The notes under the pieces were generated by a model that was not told where the DNA came from, searched no databases, and worked only from the letters and a program-made list of their open reading frames with translations. The position numbers were made by a program, and so were the translations under genes. Below are positions 5,010-41,248 of a DNA stretch of 64,000 nt, in pieces. The stretch covers positions 124,001 through 188,000 of the forward strand of contig NZ_JAGYJK010000011.1 of NCBI RefSeq assembly GCF_018402175.1, written 5' to 3'. Numbering within the stretch: the first letter of the stretch is position 1; each line of letters starts with the position of its first letter. Source of the stretch: Yoonia sp. (lineage in GTDB: Bacteria; Pseudomonadota; Alphaproteobacteria; Rhodobacterales; Rhodobacteraceae).

Positions 5010-5421
5010 CCCCGCGATACTCTGTAACGGACGTATAATCCTTGCGCGGCCCCGTCACATCCCAAGTCGCGCGCCAATCCGGCCAGCGGGTGAAATCGTA
5101 AACAACGGTATAATGATCGTCTCCGCAGGGATGATCCGTCCCCGCCACCTGCCCCGCTGGCGCAAAGCTGTGAAAATCGCGCCCGTCGGCGAACCGGACT
5201 GTGACCAGCCCGCCCTCAAAATCCCATAGATAGCGGCGCGTCGCCTGCATCACCGGCGCCGCGCCAATCCGCATCTGCCCGCTTTCGGTATAGATCAGCC
5301 CTGCCTCACCCACAGGCTGCAACTCCGCGACACCGGTGAAATCGCCCTGCATTGCCCCATGCCGGTCGTCGATCCGGCGCAGAACCTGCCAGCGCCCTGC
5401 AAAATCATCCCGTCCCAACAC
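4999..5421 (-). CDS. DUF6314 family protein
   Basis: A 140-residue cytoplasmic protein of unknown function. After the start comes DDFAGRWQVLRRIDDRH, then regular beta-strand-like segments including ATRRYLWDFEGG, VRFADGRDFHSF, and a conserved end DHYTVVYDFTRWPDWRATW followed by VTGPRKDYTSVTEYR. This is the DUF6314 pattern, a lipocalin-like barrel found in many Rhodobacteraceae next to purB-type genes. The start is a GTG at 5421 (VLGRDDF) with GGGA about 9 bases upstream; the TTG right after it is an alternative. The same frame stays open further upstream, but there it runs antisense into purB. Divergent from purB, 93 bases apart. Confidence 0.75.
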   Translation of the reverse strand: MLGRDDFAGRWQVLRRIDDRHGAMQGDFTGVAELQPVGEAGLIYTESGQMRIGAAPVMQATRRYLWDFEGGLVTVRFADGRDFHSFAPAGQVAGTDHPCGDDHYTVVYDFTRWPDWRATWDVTGPRKDYTSVTEYRGGVR

Positions 5422-5514
5422 CGTATCTGTCCCGTTCTTGGCTTGAGGCTTGGCCCCGTCCCTCTTATGACGCAAAGGCAATCCGCTGCCCAGACCAACG
5501 AAAAGGTGCCTGCC

Positions 5515-6822
5515 ATGATCCCACGTTATTCCCGCCCCGACATGACCGCCATCTGGGACCCCGCCACCAAGTTCCGCATCTGGTACGAGATCGAGGCCCA
5601 TGCCTGCGACGCCCAGGCCGCCATCGGCGTGATCCCCGCCGAGAACGCTGCCGCCGTCTGGAAAGCCAAAGACGCCACCTTTGACGTCGCCCGCATTGAT
5701 GAAATCGAGGCCGTGACCAAACATGACGTCATCGCCTTTCTGACCCATCTGGCCGAAATCATCGGGCAGGATACCGCGCGTTTCGTGCATCAGGGGATGA
5801 CATCATCGGATGTGCTGGACACGACATTCAACATCCAGCTGGTCCGCGCCTCTGACCTGCTGCTTTCGGGCATGGACCGCGTGCTGGCCGCACTGAAAAC
5901 CCGCGCGCTGGAACATAAAGACACGGTGCGCATCGGGCGCAGCCACGGCATCCACGCCGAACCCACGACGATGGGCCTGACCTTTGCGCGATTCTATGCC
6001 GAAATGGACCGCAACCGCGCGCGTCTGGTCAATGCGCGCGCCGAAATCGCCACGGGTGCGATTTCAGGCGCCGTCGGCACCTTCGCCAATATCGACCCCA
6101 GCGTCGAGGAACATGTCTGCGCCCAGCTTGGCCTGACGCCAGAGCCGATCAGCACACAGGTCATCCCGCGCGACCGGCATGCGATGTTCTTTGCCACGCT
6201 GGGCGTGATCGCATCAAGCATTGAAAACATCGCGATCGAGATCCGCCATATGCAGCGTACCGAAGTGCTGGAGGCCGAGGAGTTTTTCTCTGCCGGGCAA
6301 AAAGGCAGCTCTGCCATGCCGCATAAACGCAACCCCGTGCTGACCGAAAACCTGACCGGTCTTGCGCGGCTGGTGCGCATGTCGGTGATCCCCGCGATGG
6401 AAAACGTGGCGCTTTGGCATGAACGCGATATCAGCCATTCCTCGGTCGAACGCGCCATCGGGCCGGATACGACCATCACGCTGGATTTCGCGCTGCACCG
6501 TCTGGCGGGGGTGGTCGAAAAACTGGTGATCTATCCCGAAAACATGCTGGCCAATATGAACAAATTCCGCGGGCTGGTGATGTCACAGCGCGTCTTGCTG
6601 GCGCTGACGCAGGCCGGCGTGAACCGCGAAGACGCTTACCGTCTGGTGCAGCGCAACGCGATGCGGGTCTGGGAACAGGGGGCGGATTTCAAAACCGAAC
6701 TGCTGGCTGATGCGGATGTGCTGGCCGCCCTGTCACCTGCCGAGATCGAGGAAAAATTCGACCTTGGCTATCACCTCAAACATGTCGATACGATTTTCGC
6801 GCGCGTGTTCGGCGCGCCGTAA
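5515..6822 (+). CDS. purB: adenylosuccinate lyase
   Basis: Cleaves SAICAR and adenylosuccinate, releasing fumarate, in two steps of purine synthesis. The 435 residues match the short bacterial PurB type. Visible motifs are TKHDVIAFLTHL, HQGMTSSDVLDT (binding and catalytic histidine region), GRSHGIHAEPTT, and the fumarase/aspartase-superfamily signature GSSAMPHKRNP around residue 265, with the flexible catalytic serine loop. The frame is open 52 codons further upstream, but MIPRYSRPDMTAIWDP is the family start and AAAGGTG lies upstream. Ends 26 bases from the convergent luxI gene. Confidence 0.97.
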   Translation: MIPRYSRPDMTAIWDPATKFRIWYEIEAHACDAQAAIGVIPAENAAAVWKAKDATFDVARIDEIEAVTKHDVIAFLTHLAEIIGQDTARFVHQGMTSSDVLDTTFNIQLVRASDLLLSGMDRVLAALKTRALEHKDTVRIGRSHGIHAEPTTMGLTFARFYAEMDRNRARLVNARAEIATGAISGAVGTFANIDPSVEEHVCAQLGLTPEPISTQVIPRDRHAMFFATLGVIASSIENIAIEIRHMQRTEVLEAEEFFSAGQKGSSAMPHKRNPVLTENLTGLARLVRMSVIPAMENVALWHERDISHSSVERAIGPDTTITLDFALHRLAGVVEKLVIYPENMLANMNKFRGLVMSQRVLLALTQAGVNREDAYRLVQRNAMRVWEQGADFKTELLADADVLAALSPAEIEEKFDLGYHLKHVDTIFARVFGAP

Positions 6823-6848
6823 CTGGCCAAACAGCAGCGCCGATGCGG

Positions 6849-7496
6849 TCACAGGGGGGCGTCTGCCTGCGGGCGCCGTGACCGCGTGGCGGGCTGCGGC
6901 GGCGGTGACCTGCGCATGACCGCAGGCATGCGCATCGCGACGTAGCGGCGCGCATCATGCAGGTTGACGTAAGAATCACCGACGATCCGCGCTGCAAACC
7001 CCAGCTGTCGCAGCGTCCGCGCAAACACCGGCGGGCAAAGTGCGATGATTTCCGTGGCCCCCTGCGCGCGGGCCTGCGCAACGATCCCGTCCAGCACCAG
7101 TGACAGACATCGAGCGCGGTCCGCCTGCGTCGTCACATCGTCGGAAATGACGACACGGGTCGCTTCCCAGACCATCGGCGTGACCTCGGCATGGGGGATG
7201 ATATCGGCGGGGATGCCGATCAGCTTGCCGTCCACCGCATCGCGCAACATATAGGTATGCGCGCCCCATTGCGCGGTCGTGGCCATCGCGCGCATGCCGC
7301 CGATGACCTTGCCGTCGCGCAGCACCAGCGAATAATAGGCCTTGGGATTATCGTATTGATCCATCTCGACCTGATCATCATGCGGAATATCCCAGCCCAG
7401 CTGATCGACGAAAAACCGTTTGCGCAGCGCAAGAAATTCGAAAAAGGCCGGGCCATGGCGGTACAGGTCCAAAAGATTGAAAGTAATGTTTTCCAT
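6849..7496 (-). CDS. LuxI-type acyl-homoserine lactone synthase
   Basis: Makes an N-acyl-homoserine lactone signal from S-adenosylmethionine and an acyl-ACP. The family's invariant residues are present: RKRFFVDQLGWDIP (Arg, Phe, Trp), the acidic pair in VEMDQYD, GGMRAM, and the Glu/Arg of VWEATRVVI. The length of 215 is usual. The last 22 or so residues form an odd Pro/Arg-rich tail (RRSPPPQPATRSRRP) beyond the core fold. An AGGGG Shine-Dalgarno precedes the ATG. It lies 118 bases downstream of luxR on the same strand. A dyad 39-56 bases upstream of the start (7535-7552) has the size of a lux box. The acyl chain length cannot be told from sequence. Confidence 0.9.
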   Translation of the reverse strand: MENITFNLLDLYRHGPAFFEFLALRKRFFVDQLGWDIPHDDQVEMDQYDNPKAYYSLVLRDGKVIGGMRAMATTAQWGAHTYMLRDAVDGKLIGIPADIIPHAEVTPMVWEATRVVISDDVTTQADRARCLSLVLDGIVAQARAQGATEIIALCPPVFARTLRQLGFAARIVGDSYVNLHDARRYVAMRMPAVMRRSPPPQPATRSRRPQADAPL

Positions 7497-7534
7497 ATCT
7501 ACCCCTGAGCATTCAATCCACGGCCACGCAGCTG

Positions 7535-7552
7535 CGACAACCGAGAGTGTCG
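7535..7552 (-). promoter_or_regulatory. candidate lux box upstream of luxI
   Basis: CGACA-ACCGAGAG-TGTCG, an 18-bp dyad with perfect 5-bp arms, centred about 47 bases upstream of the luxI start. LuxR-type proteins bind 18-20 bp dyads just upstream of promoters. The next stretch upstream (7555-7614) is strikingly AT-rich and contains the 14-bp palindrome TAATTTATAAATTA (7582-7595). The sequence does not match the Vibrio lux box, so the call rests on size, symmetry and position only. Confidence 0.45.
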
Positions 7553-7614
7553 TAACGATGCCTCAAATTACGCTTTAATTGTAATTTATAAATTAAAAAC
7601 TTTGGGGAAAGCGA

Positions 7615-8223
7615 TTAAATCAGCCCGTATTGGCTGGCCAGGGCAGCGGCCTGCGTGCCGGTCTTTGCGCCCAGCTTGAGCTTGGCATTCTTCAGCCGCT
7701 GTTTCACGGCGCCTTCGCTGACCCTTAACTGAAAGGCAATTTCCTTTAGCCTCCGGCCGTCCTTGATCATACCCAGCGCCTCGATCTCGGCCTTGGTCAG
7801 ATTCGTGGGCGGCGCTGTTTCAGTGTGGCGGCGGGTCAGATAGACCTGCAACAATTTCGCCTCCAGCGTGCTGAACTCCCGGTCAGACCGCGTGAAAGAG
7901 GCCAGTGACCGCTGCTGGTCCTTGCCGCTGTCGAACACCGACACGGTCAGGCCATAGCGCATCCCGAATGACCGCGCCTGCGCCAGAACACGCTTGGGAT
8001 CGTCCAGCGCAATCTCGCTCCAGCGGATGCAGCCGACATTGGCATAGGCCCATCTGACCGTCGGATCATACAGCATAAAGCGTTGTTTTGTATAATGATC
8101 TATCCAGTCAGACGACAAGGCGTTGGTTTCTTCAATCGGAAAGGCAAAACCGATACGCAACGCGATATAATATCCGGCAGGAGCAAGCTGTGCGATCTCG
8201 GCCGGACCGATTAAAACAGACAT
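7615..8223 (-). CDS. LuxR-type quorum-sensing regulator
   Basis: A 202-residue transcription factor. Residues about 5-135 form the autoinducer-binding domain with the conserved ligand residues: Trp and Tyr in SDWIDHY, Asp in LYDPTV, and Trp in CIRWSEI. Residues about 142-202 form the GerE helix-turn-helix (LTKAEIEALGMIKDGRRLKE, then VSEGAVKQRLKNAKLKLGA). It is about 30 residues shorter than TraR or LuxR but both domains look complete. A GGGGAGCGG Shine-Dalgarno directly precedes the ATG. luxI follows on the same strand, and a LuxR-like protein without the DNA-binding domain is divergent from it, 135 bases away. Confidence 0.88.
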   Translation of the reverse strand: MSVLIGPAEIAQLAPAGYYIALRIGFAFPIEETNALSSDWIDHYTKQRFMLYDPTVRWAYANVGCIRWSEIALDDPKRVLAQARSFGMRYGLTVSVFDSGKDQQRSLASFTRSDREFSTLEAKLLQVYLTRRHTETAPPTNLTKAEIEALGMIKDGRRLKEIAFQLRVSEGAVKQRLKNAKLKLGAKTGTQAAALASQYGLI

Positions 8224-8303
8224 CCGCTCCCCTTGACGAGCCCCACATATGAGAAAGCTCTTGTTGCTACGCGCTGCATCACACTAGACTGTCCCATGCG
8301 TTG

Positions 8304-8319
8304 TTTTGCAGTGGCAAAA
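8304..8319. promoter_or_regulatory. inverted repeat between luxR and the ligand-domain gene
   Basis: TTTTGC-AGTG-GCAAAA, a perfect 16-bp dyad in the 135-base divergent intergenic region, 40 bases before the GTG start of the ligand-domain protein. Position and symmetry make it a candidate operator for one or both genes. Its sequence differs from the dyad upstream of luxI. Confidence 0.35.
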
Positions 8320-8358
8320 ATGACAAACCTGACATGGCAACCGTAAAGCGAGTGTTCC

Positions 8359-8847
8359 GTGCCTATTCAACAGTTGCAGATTACCAGTATTTTGGGGCGT
8401 TTCAATGGCCTGGCACCAGATGGATATGCAATAGGGCTTAATATTGCGTATACGACACCACGTTTCATGTTTCAAACCTATCCCAAGGCATGGCTTGACT
8501 ATTATTCGGGAAATGGGCTGATCATGTCCGACCCGATCGTGGCATGGGGTTTCGAAAATGCCGGCACAGCGCGTTGGTCGGAATTGGACGATCCTGCCGG
8601 TGTCATGGCGAAGGCGGCCGAATTCGGGCTAGCCCATGGTGCGGTGATTGTCGCATTGTCCAATGACGACCGCAGCATTTGCGGATTTGCCAAAAATGCC
8701 GCCGAATTCACCGATGCAGAAATTGCGGAATTAGCAGAAAACGTCGCGGCCCTACATGCGCTGACAGCCGATCTGTTGCAGCTGGCCCCTGAGACGGTCG
8801 CGCAGCTGCGCAAGATGTCGATCATGGTGACGCATCCTGAATCCTGA
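8359..8847 (+). CDS. stand-alone LuxR autoinducer-binding domain protein (no HTH)
   Basis: A 162-residue protein made only of the LuxR ligand-binding domain. It keeps the ligand residues Trp and Tyr (KAWLDYYS), Asp (MSDPIVAW) and Trp (TARWSEL), and aligns with the N-terminal half of the neighbouring LuxR (LAPxGYxIxLxI, then the same W-Y-D-W series). It then ends after a helix (AELAENVAALHALTADLLQL) with no GerE helix-turn-helix. The downstream DNA does not encode one in any nearby frame; the FliG-like gene begins 46 bases later. Start is GTG; an in-frame TAA lies 5 codons upstream and the Shine-Dalgarno is poor. It probably binds signal or pairs with LuxR and so dampens or tunes the response; this is inference. 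Confidence 0.8.
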   Translation: MPIQQLQITSILGRFNGLAPDGYAIGLNIAYTTPRFMFQTYPKAWLDYYSGNGLIMSDPIVAWGFENAGTARWSELDDPAGVMAKAAEFGLAHGAVIVALSNDDRSICGFAKNAAEFTDAEIAELAENVAALHALTADLLQLAPETVAQLRKMSIMVTHPES

Positions 8848-8893
8848 CAGTGCTGGCAAGGGTTTGTTTACGCGTCTGCGCTAGGGTCAGGAT

Positions 8894-9931
8894 ATGAGCT
8901 TTATGTCCGACATCCATTCCGCCGCGGCGATGACACGCCGCCGCAAGGCCGCCATCGTGGTGCAGATGCTGATCGCCGATGGCGGCAGTATGCCATTGGC
9001 GGACCTGCCCGAACATCTGCAGGAATTGCTGACCGGCGAATTGGCCCGCTTGCGCCGGCTTGACCGGGTGACAATGGACGCGGTGGCCGAAGAATTCGCC
9101 TCTGAACTGGACGCCATGGGGATGGCCGCCCCCGGCAGCCGCGACAATGCCATCACGGCGCTGGCCGATCACCTTAGCCCGGGCTTGGCCAGCCGCCTGC
9201 AAGCGCAGATGGACAGCGTGCGCAACGGCGATCACTGGCCGGTGGTGGCCGATCTGGCGGTGCCGGTGCTGGCGCGGATCATGCAATCGGAAAGCATCGA
9301 AATCTGCGCTGTCGCCCTGTCAAAACTGCCCGTGGCCAAGGCGGCAGAGGTGCTGGCAAAAACGCCCGGCGACCGCGCGCGCCGGATCACCTATGCGATG
9401 TCGATGACCGGTGATGTGACCCCCGATGTGGTGCGGCGCATCGGGCGCGCGCTGGCGCAGGAATATGGACATCCGCCCGCCACCGCCTTTGACAAGGCAC
9501 CCGTGCAGCGGCTGGGCGCGATCCTCAATTCCGCCGCGACCGACACGCGCGAAGACGTGCTGGAAGGATTGGGCGCCAAAGACCCGGTCTTTGCCAGCGA
9601 TGTGCGCAAGGCAATTTTTACCTTCAAGGACATCGCACCACGGGTCAAACCAAACGATATTTCCACCTGTACCCGCGCGGTCGATGCGGCCGTTCTGTCC
9701 ACGGCGATTGCGGCGGCGCTGGCAGGCGATGCCGATGTCGTGGCCTCGGCGGAATATGTGCTCGCCAATCTGTCGCAGCGCATGGCGGCCCAGCTGCGCG
9801 AAGATGCCGCCGAACGCGGCCCGATCAAAAAAGCCGATGCAGAGGCTGCGATGGCCGCGATCACGACTGCCGTGCGCGAACTGGCCGATGGCGGGCTGAT
9901 CGTGCTGCGCGACCCCGATCAGGAGGAATGA
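8894..9931 (+). CDS. FliG-like flagellar motor switch protein, divergent
   Basis: 345 residues with the three-part armadillo layout of FliG: an N-terminal region with RRRKAAIVVQMLIADG, a middle domain with PVAKAAEVLAKTPGDRARRI, and a C-terminal domain with VRKAIFTFKDIAPRVKPNDI and MAAQLREDAAERGPIKKADAEAA. FliG forms the rotor ring that takes torque from MotA. The usual middle-domain EHPQ motif is replaced by QSES, and the charged torque helix is weakly conserved. No other flagellar gene lies in this window, so it could be the cell's only FliG placed apart or a paralogue with another job. A possible REP palindrome follows 4 bases after the stop. Confidence 0.72.
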   Translation: MSFMSDIHSAAAMTRRRKAAIVVQMLIADGGSMPLADLPEHLQELLTGELARLRRLDRVTMDAVAEEFASELDAMGMAAPGSRDNAITALADHLSPGLASRLQAQMDSVRNGDHWPVVADLAVPVLARIMQSESIEICAVALSKLPVAKAAEVLAKTPGDRARRITYAMSMTGDVTPDVVRRIGRALAQEYGHPPATAFDKAPVQRLGAILNSAATDTREDVLEGLGAKDPVFASDVRKAIFTFKDIAPRVKPNDISTCTRAVDAAVLSTAIAAALAGDADVVASAEYVLANLSQRMAAQLREDAAERGPIKKADAEAAMAAITTAVRELADGGLIVLRDPDQEE

Positions 9932-38248: not shown

Positions 38249-41248
38249 TCTGCTTTGCCCCTTCCTTGTCATAAAACACCGGATCGACGATGCGGGCGGC
38301 GACGGTCTTGGCGTCATCCACGGTGTTAAACGTAATCACCTCGCCCATCCGGTCCGGCCCGCGATGCACCAGCCCCATCGCGATCCCGCGCCCCAGCGTG
38401 GGCGAATGATAGGTCGATGTGACGCGGCCTTGGGTGTTGCGCTGGCCATTGGCATTGCTGCCGTCAGCAATCGCATAGGCCCCGTCCGGCAGGACCGACC
38501 CGTCCAGCGTTTCCAGCCCCACCAGACGCCAGCGGTCGGGGTTGTCCATGAAACTGCGGGCATGGGCGCGCTTGCCAAGATAGTCGTCTTTCTTCTTGGA
38601 CAAGGCCCAGTGCAGGTTCAAATCCTGCGGAATGACCGTGCCGTCGGTTTCATCGCCGATCATGATGAACCCTTTTTCGGCGCGCATGATATGCAGCGCC
38701 TCGGTCCCGTAGGGCATCACGCCGAACTCTTCGCCCGCCGCGATCAGCGCCTCCCAAAAGGCACGACCCTGCCCCGCAGGCACCGCGATTTCATAGGACA
38801 ATTCGCCCGAGAATGAAATCCGGAACACCCGCGCATCAAACCCGCCGATCTTTCCTGCCTGCCACTGCATGAACGGCAGCGCGGTCAGGTCCATCCCGCC
38901 CAGTTTGTCCAACAGCAGCTTGGCTTTCGGGCCGACCACGGCGACCTGCGCCCATTGTTCGGTGACATTGGCGACATAGACTTTCCAGTCCCACCATTCG
39001 CATTGCAGCCAGTCTTCCATCCAGGCATGGATCCGGTCCGCCCCGCCGGTGGTGGTATGGCACAGCCATGTATCCTCCGAGATCCGCGCGACGACACCGT
39101 CATCCATCAAAAACCCGTTTTCCGAACACATCAGCCCGTAACGGCATTTGCCCACAGCCAGATTGGACATCATATTGGTGTAAAGCATGTCAAGGAACTT
39201 GCCCGCATCCGGCCCCTTGACGATCAATTTGCCAAGGGTCGAGGCATCGAGCAGCCCGATATTGCTGCGGGCATTGGTGACCTCGCGGTTGACCGCGTCA
39301 TGCACCGTTTCGCCGGCGCGGACATAGGCAAAGGGCCTGCGCCACTGGCCGACGGGTTCGTTATCCGCGCCATTGGCATTGTGCCAATCCGACATCGGCG
39401 TCTTGCGCAAAGGCTGGAACACGCCGTCGCGTGCCGCACCCGCAATCGCCGCCATCGAAATCGGCGTATAAGGCGGGCGGAATGTCGTCGTGCCGACATT
39501 CGGGATCGCCGTGTTCAGTGCATTGGAAAGCACCGCCAGACCGTTGATATTGCTAAGTTTCCCTGATCCGTTGCCATGCCGAGCGTCGTATAGCGTTTGG
39601 CATGTTCGACGGATGTGAACCCTTCCTGCGCGGCCAGCTGGACATCGGTGACCTTCACATCATTCTGGAAATCCAGCCATGTCTTGGACCGCAGCGCATA
39701 GCTGGCCCCTTGCGGCATCATCCAGACGGGGGCGATCGGGCCTTCCTCTGCGTCCACGGCCAGGGGGGCCATGGTCACATCCTGCGCCTGTCCGGCGGCC
39801 AAGGCGGCAGCCTTGCCCGCCGCCACCGCATCGGCCAGCACAGCGGCGCTGCGCAGATGGCCATTGGCCACCCCAGCGGCGATCACGAAACCCGCGCCAT
39901 CAGCACCGGTCGGCGGGCGGGCCGTGTCGGGGCGGAACATCGCCTGCGCATCGTCCCAGACCAGCTTGCCACCGCAATGCGACCACAGATGCACGACCGG
40001 CGACCAGCCGCCCGACATCGCCACGCAATCGCAGGCGATTTCTTCCAGCACGGCGCCTTCACCGGCCTGCGCACAAAGCGCGACACCGGTGACCCGCTTG
40101 CCACCTTTGACCTTTGCGATGCCCTTGCCATCCGCAATACGGATGCCCAAGGCGCGGGCTTGGTCGATCAGTGGACCTTCCGGCGCGGTGCGCGCATCCA
40201 CGATGACCGGCACGTCCAGCCCCGCCTTTTTCAAGGCAATGGCGGTGCGATAGGCATCGTCGTTATTGGTGACAACCACCGTGCGATCCCCGACAGAGAC
40301 GCCGAAATTGACAGCATAATCGCGCACAGCCCCGGCCAGCACCACGCCGGGCAGATCATTGCCCGCGAATGACAAGGGCCGTTCAATCGCACCCGTCGCG
40401 GTCACGATCTGCGCCGCCCTGATCCGCCACAGCCGGTGACGCGGACCGTCCTGATCAGGCACATGGTCGGTCAGCCGTTCATAGGCCAACGTATAGCCAT
40501 GATCATACACACCGGCGCCCATGCAACGCGCACGGATAGTGACGTTTGACATCTTATCAAGTTCTTGCAGCGTGGATTTAATCCAATCCGCCGCATCCAT
40601 CCCGTCGATCTGCGCCCCGTCCACGACAGCGCGGCCACCCCAATCTGCGGTCTGTTCGATCAGCAGGACCCGCGCACCGGCCTGTCCTGCGGCCAGCGCC
40701 GCCGCCAGCCCCGCGATCCCGCCACCTACGACCAGCACATCCACATGCAGGTTGAAATGCTCATAGGTGTCTTCATCACGGTCCTTGGGCGCGCGGCCCA
40801 GACCGGCGGATTGCCGGATGAACGGTTCATAGACATGTTTCCAAAAGGCACGCGGGAACATGAACATTTTATAGTAAAAGCCCGCAGGCAGAAACCGCGA
40901 CAGATGCGTGTTGATGGCACCCACGTCGAATTCCAAACTCGGCCAATGGTTCTGGCTGGTGGCGGTCAGCCCGTCGAACAATTCGGTCGTGGTGATGCGC
41001 TGGTTCGGCTCGAAAGCCGCGCCCTGCCCCAGATTGACCAGACCGTTGGGTTCCTCGGCCCCAGCCGCGACCACGCCGCGCGGGCGGTGGTATTTGAACG
41101 ACCGGCCGACCAGCATCTGGTCATTGGCCAGCAGGGCTGATGCCAGCGTATCCCCCGCGAAACCGCGCAGGTTTTTGCCGTTGAAGGTGAAACTGACAGG
41201 CTTGGTGCGGTCGATCAGACGACCATGACCCGCAAGACGCGTGCTCAT
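38241..41248 (-). pseudogene. soxA: sarcosine oxidase subunit alpha, single-base frameshift
   Basis: About 1002 residues if repaired, normal for SoxA. The first frame (41248 to 39515) has the 2Fe-2S-type N-terminal domain, the NAD-binding VLVVGGGIAGLAAALAAGQAG, and further flavoprotein segments; it reads KRYTTLGMATDQG and then derails. The second frame (to 38241) resumes with VLSNALNTAIPNVGTTTFRPP and contains the folate-binding aminomethyltransferase-like domain (GLLDASTLGKLIVKGPDA, FSGELSYEIAVPAG). One base is missing in the GGGAAA run near 39558-39563; adding it restores GKLSNINGLAVL. Sarcosine oxidase demethylates sarcosine to glycine with tetrahydrofolate as acceptor. The ATG overlaps soxD (ATGA). 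Confidence 0.88.

Follow-up and report, generated by a model that had tools for sequence, protein, structure and literature searches.

The 64,000-nucleotide stretch of Yoonia sp. DNA analyzed here (the window) encodes a stand-alone autoinducer-binding domain, Abd, that groups with CerN of Cereibacter sphaeroides. We predict, with a probability of about 0.64, that Abd binds the AHL of the neighboring LuxI, pairs with the CerM-like LuxR encoded beside it, and lifts LuxR off its DNA sites. By analogy with CerN, rising signal would likely lead Abd to remove the full receptor from DNA. Its gene adjoins luxR and luxI, the sole quorum-sensing gene pair that we found in this marine organism, is divergent from both, and stays next to the same partner in many related genera. 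The locus comprises the following features:

purB, 5359..6822, plus strand: adenylosuccinate lyase, a flanking gene of this locus type; the true start may be further in.
luxI, 6849..7496, minus strand: 215-aa AHL synthase, the sole PF00765 match in the genome.
luxR, 7615..8223, minus strand: 202-aa CerM-type LuxR with PF03472 and GerE, the predicted Abd partner, in the same tree clade as C. sphaeroides P0223.
Leader element ATGGCAACCGTAAAGCGAG, 8334..8352, plus strand: conserved, 6 nt upstream of the abd start.
abd, 8359..8847, plus strand: 162-aa stand-alone autoinducer-binding domain with a GTG start, CerN-type by fold and tree; PF03472 at 52.8 bits, no GerE.
Pocket-residue stretch of abd, 8491..8640, plus strand: W45, Y49, D58, P59, W73 and G94.
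C-terminal tail of abd (residues 142-162), 8782..8844, plus strand: matches the partner's first HTH helix in alignment and finishes in a conserved S..(x)THP-like terminus.
Second FliG-like gene, 8894..9931, plus strand: 46 nt after abd on the same strand; PF01706, PF14841 and PF14842.

Model searches of the genome found one LuxI, one full LuxR, one Abd and nothing more of these, so this strain or Yoonia vestfoldensis offers a minimal system for studying why bacteria retain a receptor half that lacks a DNA-binding domain. purB flanks most Yoonia-type loci.

CerM and CerN were worked out at the bench in 2024 in C. sphaeroides (PMC11655674). That paper reports that CerN lacks an HTH and binds CerM solely when AHL is present, and that CerM binds DNA without AHL. 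CerN together with AHL frees the DNA held by CerM, yielding free DNA in vitro and a released reporter in E. coli, while the in vitro effect of AHL without CerN was weaker (PMC11655674). Its authors suggest that the W57F change makes CerM a poor AHL binder, and they describe the outcome in C. sphaeroides as more CtrA and more swimming (PMC11655674).

Two genomes (at loci L104 and L107) carry cerI-, cerR- and cerM-like genes with the HTH-less gene divergent from them (i.e., the cerI-cerR-cerM / cerN layout). The neighbors of the CerM/CerN-type pair at both are a canonical LuxR and a LuxI with a score of just 43-44 bits against the window LuxI. Searching with the genes of these loci returned P0152, an HTH-less 160-aa C. 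sphaeroides protein that we infer to be CerN from its species and architecture. The search also gave P0223, a LuxR of C. sphaeroides that has F at TraR position 57, as reported for CerM; species and residue together suggest that it is CerM.

We placed these proteins in a tree of ligand domains. A first quick tree (109 rows) required two changes of the abd label, and the Abd proteins did not form one side of a branch. The careful version (98 rows), to which Cereibacter and related LuxRs were added and from which the rows of ten loci were left out (L015, L020, L037, L045, L061, L066, L082, L113, L125 and L127), placed all Abd proteins on one side of a branch with P0152 within (98/96). The branch itself has modest support (86/75), which counts against the favored reading, as does the result of the quick tree. 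The abd label needed one change in this tree, as it did in 85% of 200 bootstrap trees from a bootstrap that was not fully settled. Partner LuxRs formed a clade (100/99) with P0223 within, and the same four loci (L085, L101, L106 and L117) were sisters of the Cereibacter rows in both the Abd half (98/96) and the LuxR half (94/87). Since both partners occupy these positions and share sister loci, cerN/cerM are most plausibly the orthologs of the window pair, and the unit with its own luxI is likely the ancestral state. The clade of the window-type partners lies apart from full LuxRs that are probably of GtaR type. A second type of luxRI locus, possibly what we would call the GtaRI type (L109, L110, L114, L115, L128-L130, L132 and L135), encodes a LuxI of 195-205 aa and a full-length LuxR. 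This LuxR scores fairly closely against Abd and against the window LuxR, and it possibly lies near the stem of the Abd group.

The ligand pocket is near-invariant in both partners. Among 104 distinct Abd proteins, W57, Y61, D70 and P71 (TraR numbering) are present in all 104, W85 in 103 and G113 in 100; the corresponding Abd residues in the window are W45, Y49, D58, P59, W73 and G94, the pocket set of CerN. In an alignment of 110 LuxR rows, of which 106 are distinct and a few are not Abd partners, the first four residues are kept in 106/106, W85 in 102/106 and G113 in 105/106. Position 57 is thus W in the window LuxR and in every distinct row; F was found there in P0223 and P0236. W57F is a species trait of CerM and not a trait of the clade, as judged from these alignments. 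That the window LuxR keeps W57, unlike CerM, counts against signal-dependent release and is our main caution; with its pocket intact, this LuxR may respond to AHL unaided.

Taken together, the grouping with CerN/CerM and the experiments on those proteins make signal-dependent release of LuxR the likely mechanism, rather than a TrlR-style block of a signal-loaded activator. LuxR without signal would sit on DNA, as CerM does. AHL from the neighboring LuxI would load Abd, whose conserved pocket suggests such binding, and AHL-loaded Abd would pair with LuxR and lift it off DNA, as CerN does with CerM. The promoter of each target gene would decide if its expression then rises or falls. The expected effect of Abd would be that LuxR is switched off at quorum, not that the threshold for activation is raised.

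A TrlR-like anti-activator would begin with an identical pairing step. LuxR would, however, need AHL for DNA binding and activation, and AHL-loaded Abd would draw it into inactive dimers and set a higher quorum threshold. TrlR is a real precedent for such a protein (PMC11655674, PMC4338825), and the pocket is intact in LuxR as it is in Abd. We nevertheless consider this unlikely, as the partner falls in the clade of CerM, which PMC11655674 reports to bind DNA without AHL. Unlike TrlR and TraR, moreover, the pair is ancient and diverged: Abd and LuxR share 34% protein identity here, so Abd is no near-identical truncated copy of its partner. The sequence-only reading had Abd acting through the neighboring LuxR by analogy with TrlR. 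The pairing stays plausible, while the analogy and the sign of the effect are probably wrong, given that the tree groups the pair with CerN/CerM. Its threshold model, which presumes that LuxR needs AHL to bind (the opposite of CerM), is probably wrong as well.

Pairing might also have a different outcome. H133, in the last ligand-domain helix, is kept in 97/104 Abd proteins and 104/106 LuxRs. Since both this residue and the pocket are kept in both partners, a stable pair with a task of its own is possible, and LuxR/Abd might stay on DNA or alter site choice instead of leaving (i.e., Abd would be a co-receptor). The free DNA obtained in vitro and the reporter released in E. coli with CerN and AHL (PMC11655674) argue against this, and we regard it as improbable. 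At its C-terminus, 20 residues of Abd line up with the partner's first HTH helix (L142 in 79/104, L150 in 97/104) before giving way to a conserved end (S154 in 84/104, T158 in 82/104, H159 in 74/104). The predicted structure has a helix at 144-156 along which confidence drops, and residues 157-162 have pLDDT below 50. This tail may be an HTH leftover with a new use.

Conservation of the gene pair bears on signal-dependent release as well. With abd as the query, 194 of the 394 genomes (from 393 genera of the family) gave matches, some of them to full-length LuxRs. Because most loci had been fetched by their match to abd, we counted separately from LuxI, using the window LuxI against the same genomes with a cut of 145 bits that was picked after viewing the list and lies above the gap to the next match at 129. 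Sixty-seven LuxIs scored at least 145 bits. Of these nearest loci, which come from almost as many genera, 61 had the HTH-less gene within the immediate luxRI locus. In two of the six misses (G315 and G280) the LuxR/abd pair is present but apart from luxI (L024 and L028), in one (G166) the contig ends at the locus (L122), and the three with the lowest LuxI scores (163, 159 and 146 bits; L125-L127) have a different kind of LuxR and no abd. The pair occurs without this luxI adjoining at eight loci (L024, L028, L082, L086, L092, L098, L102 and L111), at one of which (L092) the purB and fliG neighbors are still there despite the missing luxI. Both the conservation seen from LuxI outward and the persistence of the pair at these eight loci support signal-dependent release. 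As for CerN, the gene adjoining abd encodes a CerM-type LuxR. luxR and abd are divergent at 104 of 107 loci and run in the same direction at three; at L090 and L095, luxR, luxI and abd are co-directional with abd last. Four Abd proteins are present in duplicate, so counts over 107 or 108 loci (including those on orientation and FliG) contain four duplicates, and the distance and dN/dS figures likewise come from the set before duplicates were taken out.

Distances between Abd and LuxR are correlated across 50 loci (r = 0.864, or 0.761 after allowing for PurB), as are those between Abd and LuxI (0.826, or 0.779 after allowing for PurB). These correlations fit a unit working with its own signal. 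The Abd-LuxR correlation supports signal-dependent release, but the two do not by themselves single out LuxR as the partner, and their near equality counts against that reading. The Abd-LuxI correlation, the intact Abd pocket and the general proposal that such proteins sequester ligands (PMC4338825) would agree with an AHL sink that lowers free signal and leaves LuxR untouched. We think a sink very unlikely, because the LuxR/abd pair is kept at the eight loci without an adjoining luxI (where another part of the genome may supply AHL) and because CerN is reported to work through AHL-dependent binding of CerM (PMC11655674).

Abd is also no recent truncation or frameshift product. A search of 5.8 billion proteins returned 178 matches at E of 1e-3 or better, and the best 120 of these are 107-186 aa long with PF03472 as the sole precomputed domain. 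The fetched loci supplied 108 abd open reading frames (104 distinct). A profile made from the LuxRs of the same loci detected an HTH in none of the 104 distinct proteins, and none was found in six frames over ~700 nt downstream of abd at these loci. This profile was trained on the 115 LuxRs themselves, so its finding an HTH in 115/115 of them is by construction. Comparison with SKA53 gives abd a dN/dS of 0.115, and comparison with DSM 16212 (a pair in which synonymous change is near saturation) gives 0.105, next to 0.068 and 0.074 for luxR; abd is under purifying selection. The same HTH-less gene at 61/67 luxI loci, an HTH in 0/104 relatives and a dN/dS of ~0.11 rule out recent truncation or frameshift. 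A decaying LuxR remnant, for which we found no supporting point, is therefore vanishingly improbable. These results confirm what the sequence-only reading had observed, a LuxR ligand domain without an HTH beside luxRI that is not a simple frameshift: PF03472 occurs without GerE, the pocket is intact, and the refuting case of relatives with a full-length LuxR in the place of abd did not turn up among the 104 distinct Abd proteins.

In Yoonia-type loci, conservation near the abd start peaks at the leader element ATGGCAACCGTAAAGCGAG (8334-8352), and a weaker form of it occurs in other genera. Its core GCAACCNNAAAGCGAG is exact in 39/104 distinct loci compared to 0/2080 base-shuffled leaders, and 38 of these 39 copies stop 6-13 nt short of the abd start. 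Within this genome the core occurs once exactly and once with a mismatch. A Shine-Dalgarno sequence (AAAGGAG) with one bulged C is a possible reading of AAAGCGAG; the element may be such a putative ribosome site or the target of a regulator. A structured RNA was rejected, as 24 sequences gave no consensus pairs and positions 6000-9500 no Rfam match. Coding sequence was ruled out as well, because the distance from leader to abd start varies between loci and the leader is therefore not read in one frame. There were no inverted repeats of at least 8 nt in 8224-8358, and the luxR-luxI gap holds an AT-rich 10-nt inverted pair (7579-7598). The reported CerM site TATCCAAAAAGACAG had a single 3-mismatch match in the 64-kb window, at 38588, which is chance level; its absence near luxR and abd counts against signal-dependent release. 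A sigma-70 scan of 7400-8950 gave 2 promoter-like sites versus 1.3 expected, none before abd. These searches thus did not identify an operator.

The gene after abd scores 107.6 bits to TIGR00207, below the cut-off of 226.7, and a better-matching FliG lies on contig C7 alongside flagellar rod-type genes. A FliG-like gene directly follows abd at 66/107 loci, and in 52 of these the two lie no more than 100 nt apart; 40 loci have none in that place, and 1 cannot be told. FliG as an obligate Abd partner is thus no general rule, given the 40 loci without it after abd; the neighbor is conserved in part of the family and is not needed for the pairing of abd with luxR.

More tentatively, and with the odds in our judgment against it, luxI-luxR-abd may be an old three-gene quorum unit of the family whose receptor joins two unlike subunits. 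The state on DNA would be LuxR by itself and the released state the AHL-loaded LuxR/Abd pair, and the cell would read the Abd:LuxR ratio along with the signal, with the amount of Abd set via the leader element (one exact copy in the genome). C. sphaeroides would then be derived, having lost the synthase, blunted the CerM pocket (W57F) and come to hear CerI instead.

Among known systems, the window pair most resembles CerN/CerM: an HTH-less LuxR ligand domain of ~160 aa is encoded beside a short LuxR with an HTH, both partners group with CerN/CerM in the tree, and six pocket residues are the same in CerN. It differs in sitting with its own luxI and not with cerR/cerI, in a partner that keeps W57 where CerM has F, and in the second FliG-like gene after abd. 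The one species in which CerN was reported has six LuxR homologues in its genome (PMC11655674), compared to the one LuxR and one LuxI here. TrlR of Agrobacterium tumefaciens is likewise an HTH-less LuxR relative that pairs with a full LuxR (PMC11655674, PMC4338825). In contrast to the old, diverged window pair, it is a near copy of TraR, which needs AHL for DNA binding; PMC11655674 gives an identity of 88% for TrlR-TraR and 31% for CerM-CerN. GtaR (of GtaR/GtaI in Rhodobacter capsulatus) is a related LuxR that acts without AHL and belongs to the same orthogroup as CerM and CerN (PMC11655674).

The locus type itself (fliG, luxR/luxI and adenylosuccinate lyase) was described in 2013 as the D topology of roseobacter luxRI loci, and the available text of PMC3824088 states that no carrier had been studied for quorum sensing by then (for D. 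shibae luxR1, see PMC4046655). A 2015 survey of LuxR solos listed fliG-[hp-abd]-luxR-adenylosuccinate lyase for Rubellimicrobium and Loktanella, named an 'autoinducer binding domain protein' at that locus in its table, and noted ligand sequestration or interaction with LuxRs as possible roles of such proteins (PMC4338825). The gene order had thus already been published in 2013 and 2015. Unlike the present analysis, the available text of these surveys gives the gene no function and no link to CerN, which was named later, and our search of the open-access literature (outside which most subscription journals lie) found no paper tying the D-topology gene to CerN. By analogy with CerN, the autoinducer-binding gene of these loci gains a likely job, and the likely sign of its effect is corrected. 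New here are the orthology to CerN/CerM, the likely ancestral unit with its own luxI, the intact pocket of the partner, and the conserved leader element of abd.
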